Below, in pieces: positions 10,496 to 28,012 of a stretch of DNA of 30,877 nt (within the stretch, counting starts at the first letter, position 1; each line of letters starts with the position of its first letter). Source of the stretch: a virus. The position numbers and the translations under genes are program-made. The stretch spans positions 1 through 30,877 of the IMG/VR virus record IMGVR_UViG_3300031951_000830; one strand, written 5' to 3'. Below the pieces are notes generated by a model. It worked only from the letters and a program-made list of their open reading frames with translations. It was not told the origin of the DNA and ran no database searches.

Positions 10496-10752
10496 TGACA
10501 CGACAAGACATAGAAGATAATTACCCAGACTCAGCACTCTTGCTACTAGAGGAGAAGTATTTTGACGAAGCTATCCTTGGGGTAGCCAGTCGAGTAAACA
10601 CTCCATGGGCTGTATGCTATGACGCTAATAAATGTATTGAGTTATTAGCCAAGCATGAGGGTATGACATTAGATGAAGCTGATGAATACTTCCACTACAA
10701 TACTGCAGGGGCATACGTTGGTGAGCATACCCCTGCATTTGTATATTACTAA
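10495..10752 (+). CDS. Conserved small phage protein (85 aa)
   Basis: 85 residues, acidic. It overlaps the stop of the giant virion gene by one base. The core YFDEAILGVASRVNTPWAVC then YDANKCIELLAKHEGMTLDE and FHYNTAGAYVGEHTPAF matches a small protein family that recurs in many phages, usually without a known role (pattern D-x-AI-GV-x-R, VxYD-x-xK, EA-x-E-x-x-x-FN-x-x-GA-x-x-GE-x-TP). Its stop overlaps that of nrdB on the opposite strand. It is the last gene of the late operon. Confidence 0.65.
   Translation: MTRQDIEDNYPDSALLLLEEKYFDEAILGVASRVNTPWAVCYDANKCIELLAKHEGMTLDEADEYFHYNTAGAYVGEHTPAFVYY
10704..10737. terminator. Candidate bidirectional terminator hairpin at the convergent junction
   Basis: An 8-bp GC-rich inverted repeat (TGCAGGGG / CCCCTGCA) with an 18-base loop lies inside the last plus-strand gene, just before its stop and that of nrdB. 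The plus side is followed by TTTGTATATT, a weak U-tract; the minus side has no good T-run. It is the only hairpin seen where two opposing transcripts must end. Terminator function is inferred. Confidence 0.35.
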
Positions 10753-11726
10753 GCTGCTAGTTTTTCCTCCGTAGTACCCCAACCCCAATCACCTTCCATG
10801 CCGGCTGCATTGTAGTCGGTTACTACGCCTTCAAAGAAGTTCTTGAGGCTATCCCCACTGATGACCCAGTCTAGCCACTCTAATGGGTTCTCTTTAACCT
10901 TCCAGTTACCCTTCAAGCCAAGCTGAATCAATCGTCTGTCAGCAATATAACGGATGTACTTCTTAACGTCAGCTGCAGTTAAGCCTTGGATCTCGCCCAT
11001 CTCAAATGCTGCATCGGTAACAGCATCCTCAAGTGCTACACCTTCTCTGAACATCTCATAGATGTCCTTCTTGAAATCGTCAGTCACAATACGTGGATGC
11101 TCATTGCAGAACTCACGGAACAGTTTAACCATTCCCTCGCAGTGCATACTCTCATCCCTCACGGACCACTCTACGATCTCGCACATACCTTTCATCTTAC
11201 CGAAACGCTGGTAGTTAAGGAGCATTGCAAAGGCTGAGAACAAAGACATGCCCTCATTCATAACTGATCTTGCAATAGCCTTAGCTAAACCGGCATGGCT
11301 ATTGGTATCAATCTGTGACATGAAGTCAATCTTCTCACTCATCTGCTTGTACTTTAAGAATGCCGAGTACTCTTCCTCTGGCAATCCAAGTGTGTCATTT
11401 AGTAATGCATAGCTACGCTGGTGCACGAACTCACGATTAGCAAAGCTAGTGAGCATGGCACGGATCTCATTGTTCTTAAACTTCTGCACATAATGCTCTA
11501 GATAATTCGTACCTACAGCAACATCACTCTGTGTAAATAATCTTAGGATTTGTGTGATGTGATTTTTCTCTTGTGGTGTTAGCTTACCACCTTGCCACTG
11601 TGCCAAGTCATCCTGCAACTTAGCTTCCCACTCACCCCAGTGGGCTTTCTCTGACTTGATGGCGTACTCAACAGCCCAAGGTGCAAAGAAAGGTTTATAG
11701 GAAACGCTGGGCGATATTAAACTCAT
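10749..11726 (-). CDS. nrdB: Ribonucleotide reductase class I, small (beta) subunit
   Basis: 325 residues. The subunit houses a dimetal centre and stores the radical used by NrdA to turn ribonucleotides into deoxyribonucleotides. Ferritin-like ligands line up as D68 (TQSD), E99 and H102 (REFVHQRSY), E158 (NEG), E192 and H195 (VRDESMH). The radical tyrosine of class Ia enzymes is present as Y106, spaced as in E. coli Y122 (H+4). The C-terminal tail ends GWGTTEEKLAA. A GGAG ribosome site lies 9 bases before the ATG. The gene is separated from nrdA by four other genes and has its own candidate promoter. Its stop overlaps the convergent late operon. Confidence 0.93.
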   Translation of the reverse strand: MSLISPSVSYKPFFAPWAVEYAIKSEKAHWGEWEAKLQDDLAQWQGGKLTPQEKNHITQILRLFTQSDVAVGTNYLEHYVQKFKNNEIRAMLTSFANREFVHQRSYALLNDTLGLPEEEYSAFLKYKQMSEKIDFMSQIDTNSHAGLAKAIARSVMNEGMSLFSAFAMLLNYQRFGKMKGMCEIVEWSVRDESMHCEGMVKLFREFCNEHPRIVTDDFKKDIYEMFREGVALEDAVTDAAFEMGEIQGLTAADVKKYIRYIADRRLIQLGLKGNWKVKENPLEWLDWVISGDSLKNFFEGVVTDYNAAGMEGDWGWGTTEEKLAA

Positions 11727-11764
11727 AGATTGGTACTCCGAGGAATTGATTGTGGAAATAAATA

Positions 11765-11780
11765 GGAGCAGAAATGCTCC
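11765..11780 (-). terminator. GAAA/TTTC-loop hairpin in the nrdB leader, terminator-like
   Basis: A perfect 6-bp stem (GGAGCA / TGCTCC) with a 4-base loop. On the minus strand it is followed by TATTTATTT, so it could end transcripts coming from the lipoprotein gene. It also lies just downstream of the candidate nrdB promoter, so it would form at the very 5' end of that mRNA and may instead stabilise it or attenuate it. Confidence 0.45.
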
Positions 11781-11792
11781 CTTGGGATTCTA

Positions 11793-11821
11793 GTTATATG
11801 CAAATTGGTCCTTTAAATCAA
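11793..11821 (-). promoter_or_regulatory. Candidate sigma70-type promoter for nrdB
   Basis: Read on the minus strand: TTGATT (-35, 11821-11816), a spacer of exactly 17 bases, TATAAC (-10, 11798-11793). It lies in one of the few real intergenic gaps on this strand (11727-11854), about 70 bases before the nrdB ATG. The -10 hexamer is identical to that of the promoter at 21056-21084. Confidence 0.6.
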
Positions 11822-11854
11822 CCCCCTTTGTATCTTATTGTTTTTGTTATTCAT

Positions 11855-12118
11855 TTATTTGTAGTACTGAATTGTCCGTGGTGCACAGGTAACATCCACA
11901 ATGACATCCGAATAGTATTCATCAATACGCCTCTTAGACATAATGATAATAGGTCTCGTTCCGGCTGCCTCACAATCCGTAATACCATTAATAACTTCTT
12001 GCCTACTCATGGCATGTACTTTCTTTTGTACCCGTAACTCTGACTTCGTACCATATGGATCAGAAGCACAACCAGTTGCTACAATTACTATGCCTGCTAC
12101 CAATAATAGTGATTTCAT
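11855..12118 (-). CDS. Small predicted lipoprotein (87 aa)
   Basis: The first 16 residues are a short signal peptide (MKSLLLVAGIVIVATG) ending in a lipobox-like ATGC, with Cys17 as the expected lipidated residue, followed by ASDPYG. The remaining 70 residues are a soluble domain with two more Cys (C49 and C78 approximately). It overlaps the upstream gene by four bases (ATGA). Phage lipoproteins act as outer spanins or as superinfection-exclusion proteins; this one is far from the lysis cassette and lies with early/replication genes, which favours the second, but the sequence does not prove either. Confidence 0.6.
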   Translation of the reverse strand: MKSLLLVAGIVIVATGCASDPYGTKSELRVQKKVHAMSRQEVINGITDCEAAGTRPIIIMSKRRIDEYYSDVIVDVTCAPRTIQYYK

Positions 12119-12462
12119 TTTATCTCCGCATTTCTAATAGCCTCAGCTATCTCCGTTAATAAACTTCCATTAGCGGGAATTACTACGGGGCAGTCAGCAA
12201 ATCGCTCTACGATCTGTGCTATCTGTTCCTTGATACATTCTATCTTGGGCAGATTTCCCGTAGTTTCCCAGCTTACTTCATCTTCAAATTGAAATATTGC
12301 ATCTTCTAATAATACACTAGCTTCCCATAAAGCATAGTCAATCTGTTCTGATCGATCTATTATTTTACTTCCTGCTGCTTCCATTGCACACACAACGATA
12401 CCGTGTGCCTTTCTTAATGCAACAATAGTATTATCAAATGTGTAGTTTGGTATGATAGCCAT
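12115..12462 (-). CDS. Hypothetical protein (115 aa)
   Basis: A soluble, helical, acidic protein of 115 residues (LRKAHGIVVCAMEAAGSKII, LLEDAIFQFEDEVSWE, IKEQIAQIVERFADC). No known motif was recognised. The ATG lies 8 bases after the ClpP-like gene stop and its own end overlaps the lipoprotein start by ATGA, so it is translated as part of the nrdA-to-lipoprotein operon. Confidence 0.55.
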   Translation of the reverse strand: MAIIPNYTFDNTIVALRKAHGIVVCAMEAAGSKIIDRSEQIDYALWEASVLLEDAIFQFEDEVSWETTGNLPKIECIKEQIAQIVERFADCPVVIPANGSLLTEIAEAIRNAEIK

Positions 12463-12470
12463 GGTATCTC

Positions 12471-13034
12471 CTAGAGTATGTGGTCGGCAATATTTAATTC
12501 AACTAATTCTTTGGCAGTTAAAAATACATCACTTGCAGGTAACAGTTTTTGTTTTACTACTGTTGCTGACATGCCACTTGCATCACGTAAAATCTGTATC
12601 ATCTTCTGATTACAGATGTCTGCTTCTTTAACTGCAGATTTAAAGTCGTGATACTTACTATCGATGTTGTCTGAAAACTGGTGACACATAGCACTGGTAT
12701 TTACAGCAATGTATCTTTCTCCTTTGGTACCAGCACAGAAAATTAAGAATGCTGCACTCATAATAGAACCAACACCTACAGTGCGGATCGGATGACTGCT
12801 GTTCCGCATTACATCAATCAACGCAAAGGCTTGATATAGATCCCCACCACCAGAGTTAATGTAGATAGTTAAAGTCTTTTCTTTCTTATCTACATTCTCA
12901 TAGGTAAGCCACTTAATACACTTAGCTATATTGTCTGCTTCGATCTCATCATACAAATAGAATATGTGATTCTCTAACAGTACAATATCAATGCGATCTT
13001 CTGCTGTCTGATCGTCATGTTTCCTAGTTGCCAT
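12471..13034 (-). CDS. ClpP-like serine protease
   Basis: 187 residues, close to the ClpP subunit length. The fold signature is clear: TLTIYINSGGGDLYQAFALI (oxyanion-loop Gly run), IMSAAFLIFCAG with the nucleophile S93, NTSAMCHQ with H118, and LPASDVFLTAKELVELNIAD with D169. The full Ser-His-Asp triad is therefore present. ClpP degrades proteins fed by a host AAA+ unfoldase (ClpX/ClpA); no unfoldase gene is seen here. In phages such proteins are more often head-maturation proteases near capsid genes, but this one is embedded in the nucleotide-metabolism cluster, overlapping the nuclease upstream by 11 bases. Confidence 0.85.
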   Translation of the reverse strand: MATRKHDDQTAEDRIDIVLLENHIFYLYDEIEADNIAKCIKWLTYENVDKKEKTLTIYINSGGGDLYQAFALIDVMRNSSHPIRTVGVGSIMSAAFLIFCAGTKGERYIAVNTSAMCHQFSDNIDSKYHDFKSAVKEADICNQKMIQILRDASGMSATVVKQKLLPASDVFLTAKELVELNIADHIL

Positions 13035-13470
13035 TTGGTATCTCTACTATTGATATTAAATTAATGGGTACCTGAAAGAACATCTCACCTTTGTATACAT
13101 ATTTATTAGGCACCTCAACTACAGGCGATGATAGAAGTATACTGGATGGGCATAGGAATGCATGGGTAACTTCATTATTAAATACCATAAAGTATGCAGG
13201 CTTATCTAACTTAGCAAACTTAGACTTACGTTCTGGTATTTGTAATGTGTCATACTTAAATGTAGTACCTGACCATACTTTCTTAATCTCTACTTCACAA
13301 TAAAATGTTTCAGTTCCTGTATCCACAATTAAATCTACGGCATACCTATCAGGATGGTCCTCTACTGTATGCCCTAACGATTGCCAGTACAGTTTAGCTG
13401 CTGCTCTTGCAGAAGTATCTGTCTCATCAAATAGACTTTTACTAAACACCTTACGTGTTGAATTAGCCAT
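13024..13470 (-). CDS. PD-(D/E)XK-type nuclease-like protein
   Basis: 148 residues. The core reads YAVDLIVDTGTETFYCEVEI then K, giving D46...E61-x-K63, the spacing of a PD-(D/E)XK nuclease active site on two beta strands. A helix before it (SARAAAKLYWQSLGHTVED) fits the first alpha helix of that fold. The rest is beta-rich. It overlaps nrdA by 8 bases upstream and the ClpP-like gene by 11 downstream. Host DNA breakdown that feeds the reductase would fit the location, but this is inferred; a non-catalytic relative cannot be excluded. Confidence 0.6.
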   Translation of the reverse strand: MANSTRKVFSKSLFDETDTSARAAAKLYWQSLGHTVEDHPDRYAVDLIVDTGTETFYCEVEIKKVWSGTTFKYDTLQIPERKSKFAKLDKPAYFMVFNNEVTHAFLCPSSILLSSPVVEVPNKYVYKGEMFFQVPINLISIVEIPNGN

Positions 13471-15208
13471 GGCAGCTTATGCACTCCTCGGCATCTTTAA
13501 GGGCATCACGTTCTACCTTAAGACCTACCTTGTCGGCTTGCACACCTGCACTAGTACGTAAGTAATACAATCCTTTTAGTCCTGCCTTCCATGCACGTAA
13601 GTGTATTGCATTGACATACGACTTATTGCTACCTGCAGGAAAGAATAGATTGACAGATTGCCCTTGGCATATGTACTGCTGTCTATCCGATGCATGCTCA
13701 ACAACCCACGCTTGATCGAGTTCAAAGGCTGTCTTGAATACACTCTTCTCATCGTCCGTTAAGAATGGCAGGTGCTGTACAGAACCTTCATTCATAATGA
13801 TTGATGCCCACACTTCATCTTTGTTTTCGTGATGCTCGTCTAAGACTCTAGCCAAGCTATCACTCTTGACGAGATGCGAACCAGCCCTTGTACGATGCAC
13901 ATAAGCATTCGACTTAACAGGTTCAATACTTGGAGAGCAACCACAGATAATAGAACTATTGGCATTAGGAGCAATTGCAATAAGATGAGCATTCCGAACC
14001 CCAGACTTAACCATATCGGGTGCAGCCCCTCTCTCTTGGGCAAGTACTTTGGTCTCATGGGTTGCTTCCTCCTTCATGTGTTTGAACATATTGCGATTGA
14101 TTAACTTAGCTGCCACACTCTCAAATGACACACCTCTGTTCTGTAGATAACCATGGAATCCCATTGCACCTAGCCCTAAGCTACGCTCTTGCTGTGCACT
14201 GAATCGTGCCTTGGCAATATCATCAGGAGCATTGTCAATGAATACTTGCAATACATTATCTAAGAAACGAATGAGATCACGAACCATCTGTGTATCCTTC
14301 CACTCGTCAAACTTTTCTAAGTTCACACTAGACAGACAGCACACTGCAGTACGGTCTGGTGATGTAGCTAAATGAATCTCATTGCATAGATTACTGCCAT
14401 GAATTTTTAGACCCAAGTCTTTCTGTTCTTGTGGCAATCCTTTGTTAGCTGTATCAATGAAGTTAATGTAAGGACTTCCAGTACGGAACCGTGCCTCCAA
14501 GATACGTTGCCATAGATGACGGGCAGGTGTAGTCTCACGTACTACCCCGTTGGATGGGTCCTTTAACTCCCACTCTGTGCCATCAACTACTGCTTGCATA
14601 AATGCATCAGATACATTTACTGCATTAAATAAATTAAAACACTTGCGATTAATGTCACCACCAGTGGGCAACTTAAAATTAGTAAACTCGACAATATCGG
14701 GATGACTAACATCCAAGTACGCAGCATAGCTTCCTTTCCTAGTCTTGCCCTGCTTGTATGCAGTCATCTGACTATCTACTACTTTAAGAAATGGTATGGG
14801 TCCCGGTGCCTTATCACTGACACCCCTTACATCTGACCAGTGTCCACCCACCCCACCACCTTTAACTGACAGCCAAGCTACCTCAGCATTGTGGTTAATC
14901 AATTCGTCTAGGTTATCCCCTACGTAGGTAAGGAAACAGGATATGGGTAGTGCCTTGGGTTTCTCCCCGTATCTAGGTGCATTACTTAACACAGGACTAG
15001 CGTACATAAACCAGCCCTTAGAGGCGTAATCGTAGACCCGTTGGGCTAGACCTATATCCCCTGCAGAATAAGCCAATGCAGCCCTTGCAAACGCTTCCTG
15101 TGGGCTTCGTTCTTCGGTGAGTAGGTAGTAGTCCTGAAGCAGTTGCATTGCCTGCTCAGATAAACGACTATCCCTAGCTGTATCTACTATTATTCCATGG
15201 TAGTTCAT
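13463..15208 (-). CDS. nrdA: Ribonucleotide reductase class I, large (alpha) subunit, short form
   Basis: 581 residues, shorter than the about 760 of E. coli NrdA: the N-terminal ATP-cone is missing, so dATP overall-activity inhibition is probably absent. Catalytic residues are visible: C91 (SCFL) and C290 (CCLSSVNL) as the redox pair, N273-L-C275-N-E277 as the radical site, and the YY pair 548-549 (GLYYLRTS) that accepts the radical from NrdB. The C-terminus ends C576-I-S-C579, the thioredoxin/glutaredoxin-reduced arm. A phosphate-binding segment APNANSSIICG is present. It begins by overlapping a 59-aa gene (ATGA). Together with nrdB it supplies dNTPs. Confidence 0.95.
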   Translation of the reverse strand: MNYHGIIVDTARDSRLSEQAMQLLQDYYLLTEERSPQEAFARAALAYSAGDIGLAQRVYDYASKGWFMYASPVLSNAPRYGEKPKALPISCFLTYVGDNLDELINHNAEVAWLSVKGGGVGGHWSDVRGVSDKAPGPIPFLKVVDSQMTAYKQGKTRKGSYAAYLDVSHPDIVEFTNFKLPTGGDINRKCFNLFNAVNVSDAFMQAVVDGTEWELKDPSNGVVRETTPARHLWQRILEARFRTGSPYINFIDTANKGLPQEQKDLGLKIHGSNLCNEIHLATSPDRTAVCCLSSVNLEKFDEWKDTQMVRDLIRFLDNVLQVFIDNAPDDIAKARFSAQQERSLGLGAMGFHGYLQNRGVSFESVAAKLINRNMFKHMKEEATHETKVLAQERGAAPDMVKSGVRNAHLIAIAPNANSSIICGCSPSIEPVKSNAYVHRTRAGSHLVKSDSLARVLDEHHENKDEVWASIIMNEGSVQHLPFLTDDEKSVFKTAFELDQAWVVEHASDRQQYICQGQSVNLFFPAGSNKSYVNAIHLRAWKAGLKGLYYLRTSAGVQADKVGLKVERDALKDAEECISCHG

Positions 15209-15782: not shown

Positions 15783-16114
15783 GCATTCCCCCTTGTCTGT
15801 GTCCATTGTGTTAGATCAATTACATTGCTGAATTCATTCTGTGAATTTAAATCATTAAATACTATTTCACCAGACTTAACCATATCATCCATTTCATCTG
15901 AAACAATATTACCAAAAGCTTCATCACGATTTAATAAATGAAAACAAGTAACAATGCCCTTCATCAAGTGCAACAATTCACGATACGAATCCTCAGACAA
16001 TTTATCAGATGGCATGCACATCATGTTTAAGTCTACTGTCCCATTCCAATCTTCATCATCAAAGTTAGGTCGAATAATTAGTACGATGTCATCTTTTTTA
16101 ATGGGGTTACTCAT
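15779..16114 (-). CDS. Hypothetical protein (111 aa)
   Basis: A soluble acidic protein of 111 residues, with a beta-like beginning (DDIVLIIRPNFDDEDWNGTV) and a helical middle (SEDSYRELLHLMKGIVTCFH). The start overlaps the endonuclease I stop by 8 bases and its stop overlaps the DUF3310 start by ATGA. Proteins of this look are common as unassigned genes in replication clusters of podoviruses; I do not recognise a domain. Confidence 0.55.
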   Translation of the reverse strand: MSNPIKKDDIVLIIRPNFDDEDWNGTVDLNMMCMPSDKLSEDSYRELLHLMKGIVTCFHLLNRDEAFGNIVSDEMDDMVKSGEIVFNDLNSQNEFSNVIDLTQWTQTRGNA

Positions 16115-16565
16115 GTTTGGTTCCTTTATATGGATTAAATTCTAATGGCATTATTTTCTTAGGTGCTTCTCTAGTCCACTGCTCTGGTATCTTCTTATCT
16201 GCGTATAAGAAATTGTATTTCTCACACCATTCTGCATACGTTGTTTTAGATACCTTGCTTAATCTTCTTTTGCTACTTGCAAATACAAATCGAATATCCA
16301 ACTCAGGGTGTTGCTTCTGTACCAGTAGATGCTTACGCCTATCTGCTACAGTAAACAACCCCTTCGTCTCAACTATGATGCCATTGGGTAGTAGAAAGTC
16401 AGGAGTGTACTTTCGGTAACACAAGTCTTCCCATTCAATCTTAATAGATTCGTACTTCACATCTACATTTAATTGCTTTAGATCTTCCTCAACAGTTTTC
16501 TCTAGTCCACTACGATAGCCATAGGCTTTAGCTGCATCATATGCCTTCTGGCTAAACTTACGCAT
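16107..16565 (-). CDS. Endonuclease I, T7 gp3-like Holliday-junction resolvase
   Basis: 152 residues, matching T7 gp3 length (149). The protein resolves branched DNA before packaging and breaks down host DNA. Catalytic residues of the family align well: E22 (YRSGLE; T7 E20), D56 (YTPDF; T7 D55), E66 and K68 (IVETKG; T7 E65, K67). The motifs LLPNGIIVETKG and DRRKHLLVQKQHPELDIRFV are typical. The gene abuts the Cas4-like nuclease (one shared base) and overlaps the next gene by 8 bases. Confidence 0.92.
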   Translation of the reverse strand: MRKFSQKAYDAAKAYGYRSGLEKTVEEDLKQLNVDVKYESIKIEWEDLCYRKYTPDFLLPNGIIVETKGLFTVADRRKHLLVQKQHPELDIRFVFASSKRRLSKVSKTTYAEWCEKYNFLYADKKIPEQWTREAPKKIMPLEFNPYKGTKHE

Positions 16566-17422
16566 TACTCTGTGTCTTTCTTAGCAATGTGTACATACGC
16601 TACCATTGGGGGATTCTCTGCTCGTGATACAAGAGATGGTCTCTCTTCTAATCCTTCCCAACATTTATATCTATAAGAACACCAACCACATTCCCTTCCG
16701 AGTACAAGGTTGCCTGTCTCTTTCTTGCGATAGGTTTCAGGTATAGCTTCATAGCATCGTTCAAACTCATTGTTCTTTAGTTTGTCTGCCTTCTCTTTAA
16801 TCTTCTGCACCTCTGCATCTAGATCAATCGTATCAGCAGCTACATACTTAAACTCACCATTCGCTTTATTGATTACCCACCAACCGCCTGCTTTAATATC
16901 CATTGCCTTAGCATAACCAGCTAGTTGTCCTACATATCCAAATGAATCATTGTCATGTAGGGTTTTGTAATCCACAAACTTATTGGCATAGGACCATGGG
17001 CTTGCAGACTTTACGTCATCGACTGCACCTTCAGTGACTAGGTCTGGTGTGCCATGAATCGTGTGATCACCAGCAACCAGAGTTACCTTATCCCCATTTG
17101 CATATGCCACACCTGCTTGAGTTAATAAACCTTTGAACACAGCCTCAGCTATGTCACCCATCATCATGTTGATTATGAAATTTGTAGAGTGAGGAACAGC
17201 ATCTTGTGGACTGTTCTTATCAAACCAAAGCTGACAGTAGTCACGCCCTACGTTTGACATTCGCAATGAGAAGTTGTTATCCCTCTTATCTACAAACTGC
17301 CGGAGTAAGGCAGCACGGACATCACTAACGACTTGTTCTACAACCTCCTCGCTAAGTGTACTATCGCCATGTCTGACCTTACTGAGATACTGGTGTATCT
17401 TTAACTCGGCAGGATGATGCAT
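16565..17422 (-). CDS. Cas4/RecB-like exonuclease with predicted Fe-S cluster
   Basis: 285 residues. PD-(D/E)XK core: MGDIAEAVFK (E93 region), HGTPDLV with D126, DDVK with D136-x-K138, and YVGQLAGY (Q166-x-x-x-Y170) as the RecB-type motif IV. One Cys near the N-terminus (C63, GRDYCQLW) and three near the C-terminus (C245-x-x-C248-x5-C254, RECGWCSYRYKCW) form the pattern that holds a 4Fe-4S cluster in Cas4 and AddB proteins. Such enzymes resect DNA ends; in phages they act in recombination or host DNA degradation. It abuts the candidate SSB gene and endonuclease I. No CRISPR array is nearby. Confidence 0.85.
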   Translation of the reverse strand: MHHPAELKIHQYLSKVRHGDSTLSEEVVEQVVSDVRAALLRQFVDKRDNNFSLRMSNVGRDYCQLWFDKNSPQDAVPHSTNFIINMMMGDIAEAVFKGLLTQAGVAYANGDKVTLVAGDHTIHGTPDLVTEGAVDDVKSASPWSYANKFVDYKTLHDNDSFGYVGQLAGYAKAMDIKAGGWWVINKANGEFKYVAADTIDLDAEVQKIKEKADKLKNNEFERCYEAIPETYRKKETGNLVLGRECGWCSYRYKCWEGLEERPSLVSRAENPPMVAYVHIAKKDTE

Positions 17423-18309
17423 TACTCTACCTCTACGTCAACAAACTCTTCAACAATTTCAGCAAGCTCTGCATCAGGCTGTGCCTTAACATTGTCATTG
17501 AACTCCTTGACGATGTAGTCATTGTAGTTATCAATCCACGCATTGAAGTCAGCAAACAATACCTGATCAGTATCAACTAGATCAATTGTCCAGCCGAGTT
17601 CTAATGTTGCTGTAGGTAAATAGTACGATGCACCTGTAGGTAAAGACTGCTCATCGGAACCTAGAGTAATTGAATGCTGTGGCAGAATACGATTCTGCTT
17701 AGCCATCTGTGCAATAGGAGCACCTAATGTTTTAAATGCATCCTTGTTATCTACTTCCCAAATGAATGGAACAGACTCAACATCACCGAGTTCTTCACCC
17801 TTTGCATTGACTGCACCTTTCATGGTCACCTGACCAAACAGTACACGTACACGCTTGATGGATTTCAACAGTGTCTTAGTCTCAGCAGGCAGTGCAGCGT
17901 AGTCTTCAATCCAACCACTTGGTTTACCACAGTTAAATCCACCTGCATTGTCACGTAAGTCTTCCTTCAAATCCTTAGCCATGATAGTCTTGACATACTT
18001 GCCTTTGCTATCACCACTGCCTTGGATGTAACGCTTGTACATGAAGCGTTGATTAAACAAACGGATAGATACATCCGATGCATACACTGGGTCAAGGTTA
18101 GGACGATCCAGTACGTAGCTACCTGCAGCTACAACTTCTACCTTCTTCTTCTTACCATTGACAGTGCTCTCGCCCATAATGCCCTTGTGATCCAACTTCA
18201 ATCGGGCTAGTGTGTTTTGTTTCTTAGGCACAGCAATATCTGCACCCATACCCATGGCTTGTGCCATTGCTGCAAAGTTACTATTGTTTACTAATGTAAG
18301 ATCTGACAT
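17422..18309 (-). CDS. Conserved phage protein, candidate ssDNA-binding protein
   Basis: 295 residues from ATG 18309, chosen because GAAAGG lies 5 bases before it; an ATG 48 bases upstream would run into the preceding gene and lacks such a site. The protein has basic patches (NGKKKKVEVVAAGSYV, RFMYKRYIQG), aromatic residues and mixed beta strands, then a long helix and a strongly acidic tail (DAELAEIVEEFVDVEVE). An acidic tail is typical of phage SSBs, which use it to recruit partners. It lies between polymerase and exonuclease, where T7-like phages keep the SSB. I do not recognise a named family; the SSB role is inferred. Confidence 0.5.
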   Translation of the reverse strand: MSDLTLVNNSNFAAMAQAMGMGADIAVPKKQNTLARLKLDHKGIMGESTVNGKKKKVEVVAAGSYVLDRPNLDPVYASDVSIRLFNQRFMYKRYIQGSGDSKGKYVKTIMAKDLKEDLRDNAGGFNCGKPSGWIEDYAALPAETKTLLKSIKRVRVLFGQVTMKGAVNAKGEELGDVESVPFIWEVDNKDAFKTLGAPIAQMAKQNRILPQHSITLGSDEQSLPTGASYYLPTATLELGWTIDLVDTDQVLFADFNAWIDNYNDYIVKEFNDNVKAQPDAELAEIVEEFVDVEVE

Positions 18310-18319
18310 GATTACCTTT

Positions 18320-18481
18320 CTATATTTGATATTTACTTCTGCTTGATTCTTGTGCATCGTAGCTTAGCCGGTACTTCTTAACCTTCTGTACTAGTTGATG
18401 CACATTACTACTTCTTTCTACGACAACGCCATCGATACTGAATGTGAATTGTTTGCCGTCATGTTTGTATTCGAGTTTCAT
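18320..18481 (-). CDS. Small hypothetical protein (53 aa)
   Basis: The real start is ATG 18481, which overlaps the DNA polymerase stop as ATGA and has GGAGG seven bases upstream; a longer frame to 18508 would run into the polymerase. The 53 residues (MKLEYKHDGKQFTFSIDGVV then VERSSNVHQLVQKVKKYRLS) suggest a beta hairpin followed by a basic helix. No known motif. Small basic proteins coupled to polymerase may act as accessory factors, but this is only suggested by position. Confidence 0.6.
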   Translation of the reverse strand: MKLEYKHDGKQFTFSIDGVVVERSSNVHQLVQKVKKYRLSYDAQESSRSKYQI

Positions 18482-20526
18482 TGGTGAACCTCCTTTTGCT
18501 CTAGCCAATTATCCCCTATCTTTGCTTCAAGTGCAAGGGGAACATTGAAATTTATACTCCATTTGTTATTAATCAAACCTACTAGATCTGCCTGTACTGA
18601 ATCGATTACATCCACTATCTGTTGGACCTCGTCAGGGTGTACGTCAATCACAATAGAATCGTGTACTGAATTAACCACACAGCTTTGGTATGATTTCAAT
18701 CTCTTGTAGATCTCTACCAGTGCCAAAGGTACGATGTCAGCAGTAGCAAAGGATTGAACTGGGTAGTTCTTGATGGCAGTAAAGTGTGTCACTGTGCCAT
18801 CCCTCTTACGCTTGACATCAGGGAATGAAAACTCCCTGTTGCTAGGGATTTTAATGTAGCCATAATTCAATGCTTGCTTAGCCAGTACACTGTGCCACCT
18901 TGCCACACCACTGTACTTCTCCATGAAGTGTGTGTAATAAGCAGCCTCAGATTGGGTACGACCATACCCAGTAGCACCATACAACGGGGCAAAGGTATGT
19001 GTCTTAGCTACCTGCCTAGATGTAGGCTGACCTGCATCCGTAATAACCTTAGCTGTGTACGAGTGCACATCAAACCCTTCCGATACTTCCTTCATGGCAA
19101 CTGGATCTTGGGATAGGAATGCAGCTACACGAAACTCTAGCTGTGCAAAGTCAGCTTCCATAATCTTGCCACCACCAAAGCGAGATACAAACACACGCTT
19201 AACTGGGAACGTACCACTCCTTGGCATGTTTTGCATATTAGGATTAGCCCCACTGAACCTACCAGTAGATGTGATGTGTTGATTCAATCTAACGTGTAGC
19301 ATTCCATCGGGTTTAATGAAGTCAGATATGCCACCTACAAAGTTATTCAGGTAGCTATCCAGTGCAGATAACCTACGCAACTTGCCTAAAAATTCAGCAG
19401 CATCATCCATACCCTTGGATGTAGCTACACGCTCTAGTGTCTCTAGATTATCTTTACCAGTACCAAAGCCATTGGCACTAGCCCACTTCACATTAGGTGC
19501 AGTGAACTTTAAACCTGCAACTTCTTTAGTTGGCTTGAACTCAAAGCCTACACCATTGCATGTACCACACTTAGTGGATTTCTTAAATGCATTACCATCC
19601 TTCTTAGTCCGGTGGAAGAACCCTTTACCACTACAGCTATGGCACTTCTCTGCCCGTGTCTTGTACACCATATCAAAGTGTCGCTTAACTGCATCCTTAA
19701 ACTCAGTGTCTTTCATGTAGGGTGTGATGGCTGTAGCCCATGCATCTTTACTCCTTGGCTTACGACTGTATATGATCCACGATAACTGCTCTGGACTATT
19801 GAGATTGATTGGGGTATCACCCATCAACTTACGTACATGCTCTTGCAATAGCTTCTCAGTCTGTGCCTTCTCATTCTCAAACTCTACACGCACCTTATCC
19901 AGTGCATCTAGATCAACTCGTATGCCTGTCTGATATATCCGTGCCAATACAATGCACACCTCATTGGACATCTCTATCGTACTAGCTAAGCCCTGATCCT
20001 GTGGTGTCTGCAACTTACGCTGTATAGATTTGTAGATACCTTCAGTCGCACCCAAGTCATGCTCAAGATACATACTCAACTCTGCATGTGGGATATCACG
20101 AGTGCTGTACCCACGCTTGAAGTATTCCTTCATCGTGTCTTGCTTTAGTACCTCGCAGTTATGCCGGATAGCTACGGTGCCTAGGTCTAGTGGCATCTTA
20201 ATACCACGCTGCAATACGTAGTCACCTAGCATGGTATCGAATACTTTACCATCGTACTTAAAGCCAGACTCCCAGAGCCACACTAAATCGTGACTGATAT
20301 TGTGCCCAATTAAAAGTGTAGTCTTGTCTAGTAACTTCTGTACTGCAGTATGATTAGCCGGCACATCTTCTTGTACATCTGTGTGATCGAATGTATATAC
20401 TTGGCATGGCTCATCCAAGGGTTTGCATCCAACCATCACGAGAGTATTGCCAGTCTCGAATGGGTCTAAGTGCTTACGTCCATCCCGATTACTAACTGTG
20501 TTCTCCACGTCAAGGGTTAGTATCAT
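18478..20526 (-). CDS. DNA polymerase, family A, with embedded DnaJ-type zinc finger
   Basis: 682 residues. The 3'-5' exonuclease domain has Exo I D6-V-E8, Exo II GHNISHD (N76, D80) and Exo III YLEHD (D157). The polymerase domain has motif A MEADFAQLEFRV (D459), motif B RQVAKTHTFAPLYG (R504, K508, F512, Y516) and motif C VHDS (D623). F512 is the E. coli Phe762 position. Motif C has Ser after Asp instead of the usual Glu. Between them lie two CxxCxGxG repeats (C295-C298 and C320-C323), a zinc finger like the centre of DnaJ. This insertion is known from SAR116 phage HMO-2011. The start overlaps the HNH gene end by 17 bases. Confidence 0.93.
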   Translation of the reverse strand: MILTLDVENTVSNRDGRKHLDPFETGNTLVMVGCKPLDEPCQVYTFDHTDVQEDVPANHTAVQKLLDKTTLLIGHNISHDLVWLWESGFKYDGKVFDTMLGDYVLQRGIKMPLDLGTVAIRHNCEVLKQDTMKEYFKRGYSTRDIPHAELSMYLEHDLGATEGIYKSIQRKLQTPQDQGLASTIEMSNEVCIVLARIYQTGIRVDLDALDKVRVEFENEKAQTEKLLQEHVRKLMGDTPINLNSPEQLSWIIYSRKPRSKDAWATAITPYMKDTEFKDAVKRHFDMVYKTRAEKCHSCSGKGFFHRTKKDGNAFKKSTKCGTCNGVGFEFKPTKEVAGLKFTAPNVKWASANGFGTGKDNLETLERVATSKGMDDAAEFLGKLRRLSALDSYLNNFVGGISDFIKPDGMLHVRLNQHITSTGRFSGANPNMQNMPRSGTFPVKRVFVSRFGGGKIMEADFAQLEFRVAAFLSQDPVAMKEVSEGFDVHSYTAKVITDAGQPTSRQVAKTHTFAPLYGATGYGRTQSEAAYYTHFMEKYSGVARWHSVLAKQALNYGYIKIPSNREFSFPDVKRKRDGTVTHFTAIKNYPVQSFATADIVPLALVEIYKRLKSYQSCVVNSVHDSIVIDVHPDEVQQIVDVIDSVQADLVGLINNKWSINFNVPLALEAKIGDNWLEQKEVHQ

Positions 20527-27130: not shown

Positions 27131-28012
27131 TTACGCTACTGCCATCTCTTCACCAGCAATCAAACGCTGGAACTCAGCACCCTGAATCACAGACTCGATG
27201 TCCTGCTCAACACGGATACGCTTACGCTCTACCTCAGTGCCGTCACGCTGTGCTTCTACGTGGGTACTGATGTGAGTGAGTGTGTTGTAAACACGATATG
27301 CATCGTGACCGATCTCAGTGTAGCTATCGTAGATACCGATGATCTTCTCAAGCCATTTGTTATTTACCTTCGGACCAGTCTTGGTCTGATAGGTAGCTAC
27401 ATTTCTACGGAAGAAATCAACCGAGTAATCACGGGCTACAGGGATCTGACGCATCTGAGCCATGATTTCTGCATCACGCTCTAACTTCTCAGGGAAAGTC
27501 GCAGCCACTTTGCCGATGACCTCTGGATCGTAGAACGTGGTGTGCTTCTGTGCAATACCGACACGCTCTCGTGGTGCAACCATACCATTCAAGCAAGCAA
27601 GGCGGTAGATCATTGCATTGATCTGCATCTTGACTGACTGGTCATGTGAGTCACGTACATGCATCACCATCTTGGCTGCCTCACCTAACTTCTTCTCGAA
27701 GTTGTATGCCTTGAGTACAATCTTGGCTGAGAATCCTGCACCATTACCGAGTGCATGAAAGTCTACATCGACATTGCTTGTGTCTAACTTAGCCAAGGAT
27801 AAACCCTCACGCATGTTGTCCCACATGATGCGGAAGTTCTTGGGATTGTGCACGGACTTGCCGTCACCGATCACCTCGTCAGTGATAGGGTTGACTACCC
27901 AGTAACGATTGGGGATAGCCAAACCATTGCGTGTCTGTTGCTCACGCTGTGGCTCGAAGTCCAGTACTGCTGGCAATGCTGGGATGTGATCTAACGATTT
28001 AAATGTAAGCAT
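27131..28012 (-). CDS. DUF932-type phage/plasmid-like protein
   Basis: 293 residues. The body carries the hallmark segments of DUF932/DUF945 proteins: VRDSHDQSVKMQINAMIYRL followed by ACLNGMV, and AYRVYNTLTHISTHVEAQRD near the C-terminus (yN-x-x-T-x-x-x-H). The N-terminus contains GLAIPNRYWVVNP and LGNGAGFSAKIVL. The family is common on plasmids and phages, is often near replication genes, and has no firm biochemical role. TAGGAG precedes the ATG by eight bases. Confidence 0.85.
   Translation of the reverse strand: MLTFKSLDHIPALPAVLDFEPQREQQTRNGLAIPNRYWVVNPITDEVIGDGKSVHNPKNFRIMWDNMREGLSLAKLDTSNVDVDFHALGNGAGFSAKIVLKAYNFEKKLGEAAKMVMHVRDSHDQSVKMQINAMIYRLACLNGMVAPRERVGIAQKHTTFYDPEVIGKVAATFPEKLERDAEIMAQMRQIPVARDYSVDFFRRNVATYQTKTGPKVNNKWLEKIIGIYDSYTEIGHDAYRVYNTLTHISTHVEAQRDGTEVERKRIRVEQDIESVIQGAEFQRLIAGEEMAVA

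Follow-up and report, generated by a model that had tools for sequence, protein, structure and literature searches.

The window analysed here, a 30,877-base (30.9-kb) IMG/VR virus record that may be a fragment, carries a minus-strand run of genes in which a candidate single-stranded DNA-binding protein (SSB) lies directly between a family A DNA polymerase and a Cas4-like exonuclease. Endonuclease I is the next gene in the run, and genes for an endonuclease VII-like protein, a DnaB-like helicase, a primase and a tyrosine integrase lie further upstream (Table 1). The first-pass annotation had called the open reading frame of 295 aa without naming a strand; translation confirms a single open frame of 295 aa plus stop on the minus strand, and the plus strand of the same interval is closed by stops. 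A ribosome-binding-like AGAAAGG is found 5' of the ATG at 18309, and an alternative ATG at 18357 would yield 311 aa. The candidate gene and the exonuclease gene have one base in common, and the gap to the polymerase is 168 nt, compared with a family median of 47. Between these two genes there is also a 53-aa ORF (18320-18481, minus strand) with a strong AAAGGAGG, the ATG of which overlaps the polymerase stop. Elsewhere on the minus strand are a class I ribonucleotide reductase pair (10749-15208; large subunit 13463-15208, small subunit 10749-11726), which encloses a ClpP/head-maturation-protease-like gene (12471-13034; PF00574, E 1.5e-29), and a gene for a DUF932 protein of 293 aa (27131-28012; PF06067, E 2.8e-10).

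Table 1. Features of the candidate SSB gene and its immediate neighbours in the window
Feature	Coordinates	Strand	Details and basis
Candidate replicative ssDNA-binding protein	17422..18309	-	295 aa; orthologue of HMO-2011 gp13 and CRP-1 gp20; translation, relatives, model, fold match
gp32-like OB core and long C-terminal helix (predicted)	17479..18213	-	Residues 33-277, range aligned to 1gpc; secondary structure
Acidic C-terminal tail	17425..17484	-	Residues 276-295; ends EEFVDVEVE
N-terminal short helix	18256..18285	-	Residues 9-18; low confidence, pLDDT 44-65
Ribosome-binding-like AGAAAGG	18315..18321	-	Sequence
Family A DNA polymerase, directly upstream of SSB candidate	18478..20526	-	PF00476, E 8.9e-53; phrog_17
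DnaJ-type zinc insert of polymerase	19540..19659	-	Residues 290-329; CxxCxGxG at 295 and 320; PF00684 match, motif count
Cas4-like exonuclease, directly downstream of SSB candidate	16565..17422	-	phrog_1990, E 6.7e-34
Endonuclease I, next gene in run	16107..16565	-	PF05367

Relatives of the window protein were recovered by tblastn from phage HMO-2011 and nine Roseobacter CRP phages, with a best identity of 48%, and every one of them is annotated in GenBank as 'hypothetical protein'; the CRP-738 protein as query added Pelagibacter phage HTVC033P. Scans of IMG/VR uncovered at least 295 loci of this family, named here after HMO-2011 gp13, with at least 205 distinct full-length proteins, and six loci seen in marine MAG contigs, which are probably phage contigs, were set aside. 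A profile of 88 family sequences (alignment A3) matches the window protein at E 1.1e-125 and finds the family in 16 of the 24 records compared. The placement between polymerase and exonuclease that was initially noted in the window recurs in the 11 named records, where the family gene sits between the polymerase and the gene in the exonuclease position; in HTVC033P, one small gene separates it from the polymerase. Of the 295 IMG/VR loci listed, 258 could be tested for an upstream polymerase and 257 have one; for a downstream exonuclease the figures are 278 and 277 (the misses are loci L228 and L129, and the flank was too short on the polymerase side in 37 loci and on the exonuclease side in 17), counts that are not independent because many loci are near-identical. 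The distance between the aligned ends of candidate and exonuclease has a median of 9 nt in the listed loci, three of which have a polymerase gap of more than 400 nt. The gene is thus real, conserved and fixed in place.

The protein itself has the sequence features that had drawn attention to it, namely an acidic C-terminal tail and basic and aromatic patches. Its last 20 residues carry a net charge of -8, the lowest among the 40 genes of the window (the next is -4), and a tail of net -3 or lower is kept in 84 of the 88 family members, with, on average, 7.6 acidic residues and 0.75 basic ones. R83 and K107 are present in 88/88 members, residue 153 is R or K in 87/88 and residue 189 K or R in 88/88; aromatic residues occupy positions 65, 76, 91, 94 and 229 in 87-88 of 88 and position 85 in 86/88. 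These aromatic (65, 76, 85, 91, 94, 229) and basic (83, 107, 153, 189) positions are as expected of an OB-fold ssDNA site and would be the ones to contact DNA. Near the N terminus, A16, A18, M19, G20 and M21 are invariant in 23 family sequences, and the short helix there is possibly a protein-protein element that serves cooperativity. The zinc site of gp32 consists of three cysteines and one histidine; it is absent here, since the window protein has one cysteine and CxxC occurs in 0/88 members.

Sequence profiles of established SSB families do not match this protein, in agreement with the first-pass statement that no known SSB family is recognisable in the window, itself possibly a fragment of a genome. 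A Pfam scan of the window protein returned nothing, and the PDB, searched by sequence with the protein and with two profiles, yielded no matches at E <= 10. Neither the gp32 profile PF08804 (E <= 1; T4 control E 1.7e-68) nor the gp2.5-like profile phrog_112 (T7 control E 1.3e-59) matched in any of the 16 carriers, the window included. The Enc34-type profile PF10991 matched in 0/16 carriers, with T7 and HTVC103P weakly matched below the cut-off, and the bacterial SSB profile PF00436 in 0/15 records, with its control matched in 12 of 14 genomes; the phage ssDNA-binding profile PF24083 matched in 0/24 records, where the control was silent as well. HHalign gave a probability of 0.2% against the gp32 profile and 0.2% against a CRP-13-type gp2.5-like profile, and 99% between two subgroups of the family itself. 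Across 23 relatives, the Pfam scan produced weak chance matches (best E 0.018), and we reject the FliD_C note in the HMO-2011 record, which rests on such a weak match (1/23 relatives, E 0.069). A weak local match over approximately 45 residues also links the family to phrog_25014 and Campylobacter phages, in which CP21 gp223 (L083:3785-4471) resembles residues 62-105 (profile E 1.8e-4). CP21 carries a true gp32 as well, so a protein of related fold need not be a replicative SSB, and we therefore do not count this match as support; gp223 may be a second OB protein beside gp32, and one relative is annotated as a major tail protein.

Structure prediction for an OB fold had been suggested as a check on the candidate, and the resulting model aligns best with gp32 cores and then with other OB-fold ssDNA binders. 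The AlphaFold2 model, built on alignment A3, has a pLDDT of 85.1 and a pTM of 0.77, with poorly predicted ends. Run against the 1000 best PDB chains from Foldseek, VIA-align placed the T4 gp32 core first (Z 8.3, rmsd 3.8 A, 171 residues, 12% identity), followed by RB69 gp32 (Z 8.2, 174 residues), the phiC31 recombination directionality factor (RDF; Z 7.4) and gp32-Dda (Z 7.0), scores to be read in light of the fact that best Z values of 7-8 are common with this method and lie near the typical level for models without a clear match. After gp32-Dda the scores fall to 4.4, and BRCA2, RPA, LEF-3, CST and bacterial SSBs appear below this gap; by title, 17 of the 27 entries listed are gp32, SSB, RPA, BRCA2, LEF-3 or CST. 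A second model from 24 sequences of the CRP-738 subgroup alone, whose members share 19-24% identity with the window protein, has a pLDDT of 71.1 and matched RB69 gp32 (Z 7.1), T4 gp32 (7.0), phiC31 RDF (6.7), gp32-Dda (6.2) and an RB69 gp32-polymerase fusion (6.0) before dropping to 4.3, placing gp32 in four of the top five rows, and is not fully independent of the first because the subgroup is also part of A3. We read the fold as gp32-like because of the score gap below the gp32 rows and because the result repeats with the CRP-738 subgroup. With Foldseek by itself, nothing in the PDB matched at E <= 0.001 (a mycobacterial SSB ranks fifth, E 0.17), and BFVD yielded 33 matches at that threshold, nearly all of them uncharacterised phage proteins and one named SSB (A0A8D9C9R8, E 7e-4). 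A gp32-type core fold is predicted for the window protein.

The gene order of related phages, another check that had been proposed, points in the same direction. With the exonuclease as query, phages with other replication modules were brought into the comparison, and in CRP-13 and CRP-4 the slot between polymerase and exonuclease holds a gp2.5-like SSB (phrog_112, E 1.7e-10 and E 5e-4, respectively). In 51 CRP-13-type IMG/VR loci, the polymerase is upstream of the gp2.5-like gene in 48/48 and the exonuclease downstream in 50/50 testable cases. HTVC115P and HTVC103P have no gene between polymerase and exonuclease and carry a gp2.5-like SSB before the primase. The candidate had been said to occupy the place of SSB in T7-like gene orders; this does not hold for T7 itself, in which gp2.5 lies upstream of the endonuclease and helicase rather than between polymerase and exonuclease, but it does hold for cobavirus-type modules, in which a gp2.5-like gene is found in exactly this slot. 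Among the 24 records, 16 carry the gp13 family, none carries both types, one (phiM6) carries neither, and 7 carry a gp2.5-like gene, a count that includes SIO1 gp16 and ICBM1 gp21, which gave weak 50-residue matches in a six-frame search (E 4e-4) and no gp2.5-like match at the protein level, so that the slot argument rests on CRP-13 and CRP-4. This exclusion represents few evolutionary events, not 24, because whole replication modules are exchanged between these phage groups, as described in passages of PMC8528129. In Sinorhizobium phage phiM6 (L315:3986-5924), unknown genes lie between the polymerase and a Cas4-like exonuclease, where another SSB might be sought; two of the four slot genes were scanned and gave no SSB profile match worth the name.

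The type of polymerase follows the same division. A DnaJ-insert motif, with at least one CxxCxG, is present in 12 of 12 carrier polymerases inspected in the window and in named phages, and in 214/214 IMG/VR polymerase ORFs of at least 560 aa beside a gp13-family gene (in the listed loci; eight shorter ones were excluded, and none of the remaining loci among the 295 has a polymerase ORF of 500 aa). It is found in none of the polymerases beside gp2.5-like genes, either named (0/7, T7 included) or of the CRP-13 type in IMG/VR (0/36, from 51 loci with two short ones dropped), and the phiM6 polymerase has no such motif. That HMO-2011-type polymerases carry a DnaJ-type domain is stated in passages of PMC9038755 and PMC6918029; the pairing of this domain with the gp13 family is unexpected and newly observed here, and it may be mere co-inheritance.

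Taken together, the predicted OB fold and the synteny with sister phages support the SSB candidate of the first-pass annotation, and we estimate a probability of about 85% that the window protein is the phage's replicative SSB, a gp32-like OB protein without the gp32 zinc site. We infer ssDNA binding, regulation by the tail, cooperativity and a set of partners. The gp32-like core, lined by the aromatic and basic residues kept throughout the family, would grip the ssDNA that the helicase exposes; the disordered acidic tail would lie over the DNA site while the protein is free of DNA and, once DNA is bound, would dock on replication partners such as the polymerase, helicase or exonuclease; and the N-terminal helix may help the protein to pack cooperatively.

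A protein of this kind could also bind ssDNA chiefly to serve the Cas4-like exonuclease as its annealing partner in recombination, with replication left to the host SSB. Exonuclease and annealing protein are a common phage pair, the candidate and exonuclease genes adjoin each other in the window as in the majority of loci, and phrog_112 labels T7 gp2.5 as both ssDNA-binding and annealing. The fold matches listed, however, are to gp32 and other SSBs, and HTVC115P and HTVC103P, with the same exonuclease type, leave the slot empty and keep their gp2.5-like SSB elsewhere. We regard a mainly annealing function as unlikely, and the two roles are not mutually exclusive.

Two other explanations depend on the fold and on the polymerase pairing. 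The constant company of DnaJ-insert polymerases would fit an OB-like protein with no ssDNA binding that assists the polymerase or helicase, for instance by acting on the DnaJ insert; the basic and aromatic residues conserved along the strands and the exclusion with gp2.5-like SSB make this reading very improbable. The least probable of all is an RDF like that of phiC31, which is suggested by the third-best match in both models (9teh_I, an integrase-RDF fusion). The serine recombinase domain PF00239 is found in 0/16 carriers, and the integrases are of the tyrosine type in 15 of 16, the remaining one, HTVC033P, keeping the gene without a PF00589 match.

In a widespread group of aquatic phages, a gene that had no name thus very probably encodes the protein that coats ssDNA during replication, with a predicted gp32-like fold and no recognisable sequence kinship to gp32. 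This would be a case in which one SSB has taken over the fixed gene slot of another without detectable sequence kinship between them, and the assignment would fill a missing part of the replisome of HMO-2011-type phages, which according to the abstract of PMC9038755 are dominant in the ocean and broadly distributed there. That paper counts ten core genes, of which several are listed 'with no known function', and the word 'single-stranded' does not occur in its text; the legend of the four-panel figure 2 of PMC6918029 lists the abbreviation SSB. The literature passages covered for HMO-2011 and SSB, to which the original HMO-2011 genome paper does not belong, hold no statement naming this gene as SSB. 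A further proposal, tentative and on balance doubtful, combines two parts: a separate SSB family beyond the curated profiles tested replaces gp2.5 in the module of very common aquatic phages, and the DnaJ insert of the polymerase provides the site at which the acidic tail, or the complex of SSB and DNA, docks. The pairing offers a direct test of what this otherwise unexplained insert is for.

Among the closest known systems, HMO-2011 gp13, CRP-1 gp20 and their kin are orthologues in the same gene place, 48% identical across 92-95% of the protein; about half of the residues differ, and a class I ribonucleotide reductase pair is present in the window phage. Like the gp2.5-like SSBs (phrog_112, PF21265), the window protein occupies the polymerase-exonuclease slot, as they do in CRP-13, CRP-4 and CRP-13-type contigs, and like T7 gp2.5 it has an acidic tail. 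Unlike them, the family has no gp2.5-like profile match in its 16 carriers and the window protein is longer (295 aa compared with 143-232 aa in those seen); T7 gp2.5 sits elsewhere in its gene order, and its tail and that of CRP-13 gp24 (VEDDAIPF) end in F, whereas that of the window protein ends in E. The phiC31 RDF has a comparable predicted fold (9teh_I), but the carriers are without its serine recombinase. The lack of a profile match, an identity of 11-12% over the structural alignment, the missing zinc site and different gene neighbours separate the window protein from T4 and RB69 gp32 (PF08804), with which it nevertheless shares a predicted core fold, a length of approximately 300 aa, an acidic C-terminal region and a short N-terminal helix before the core.
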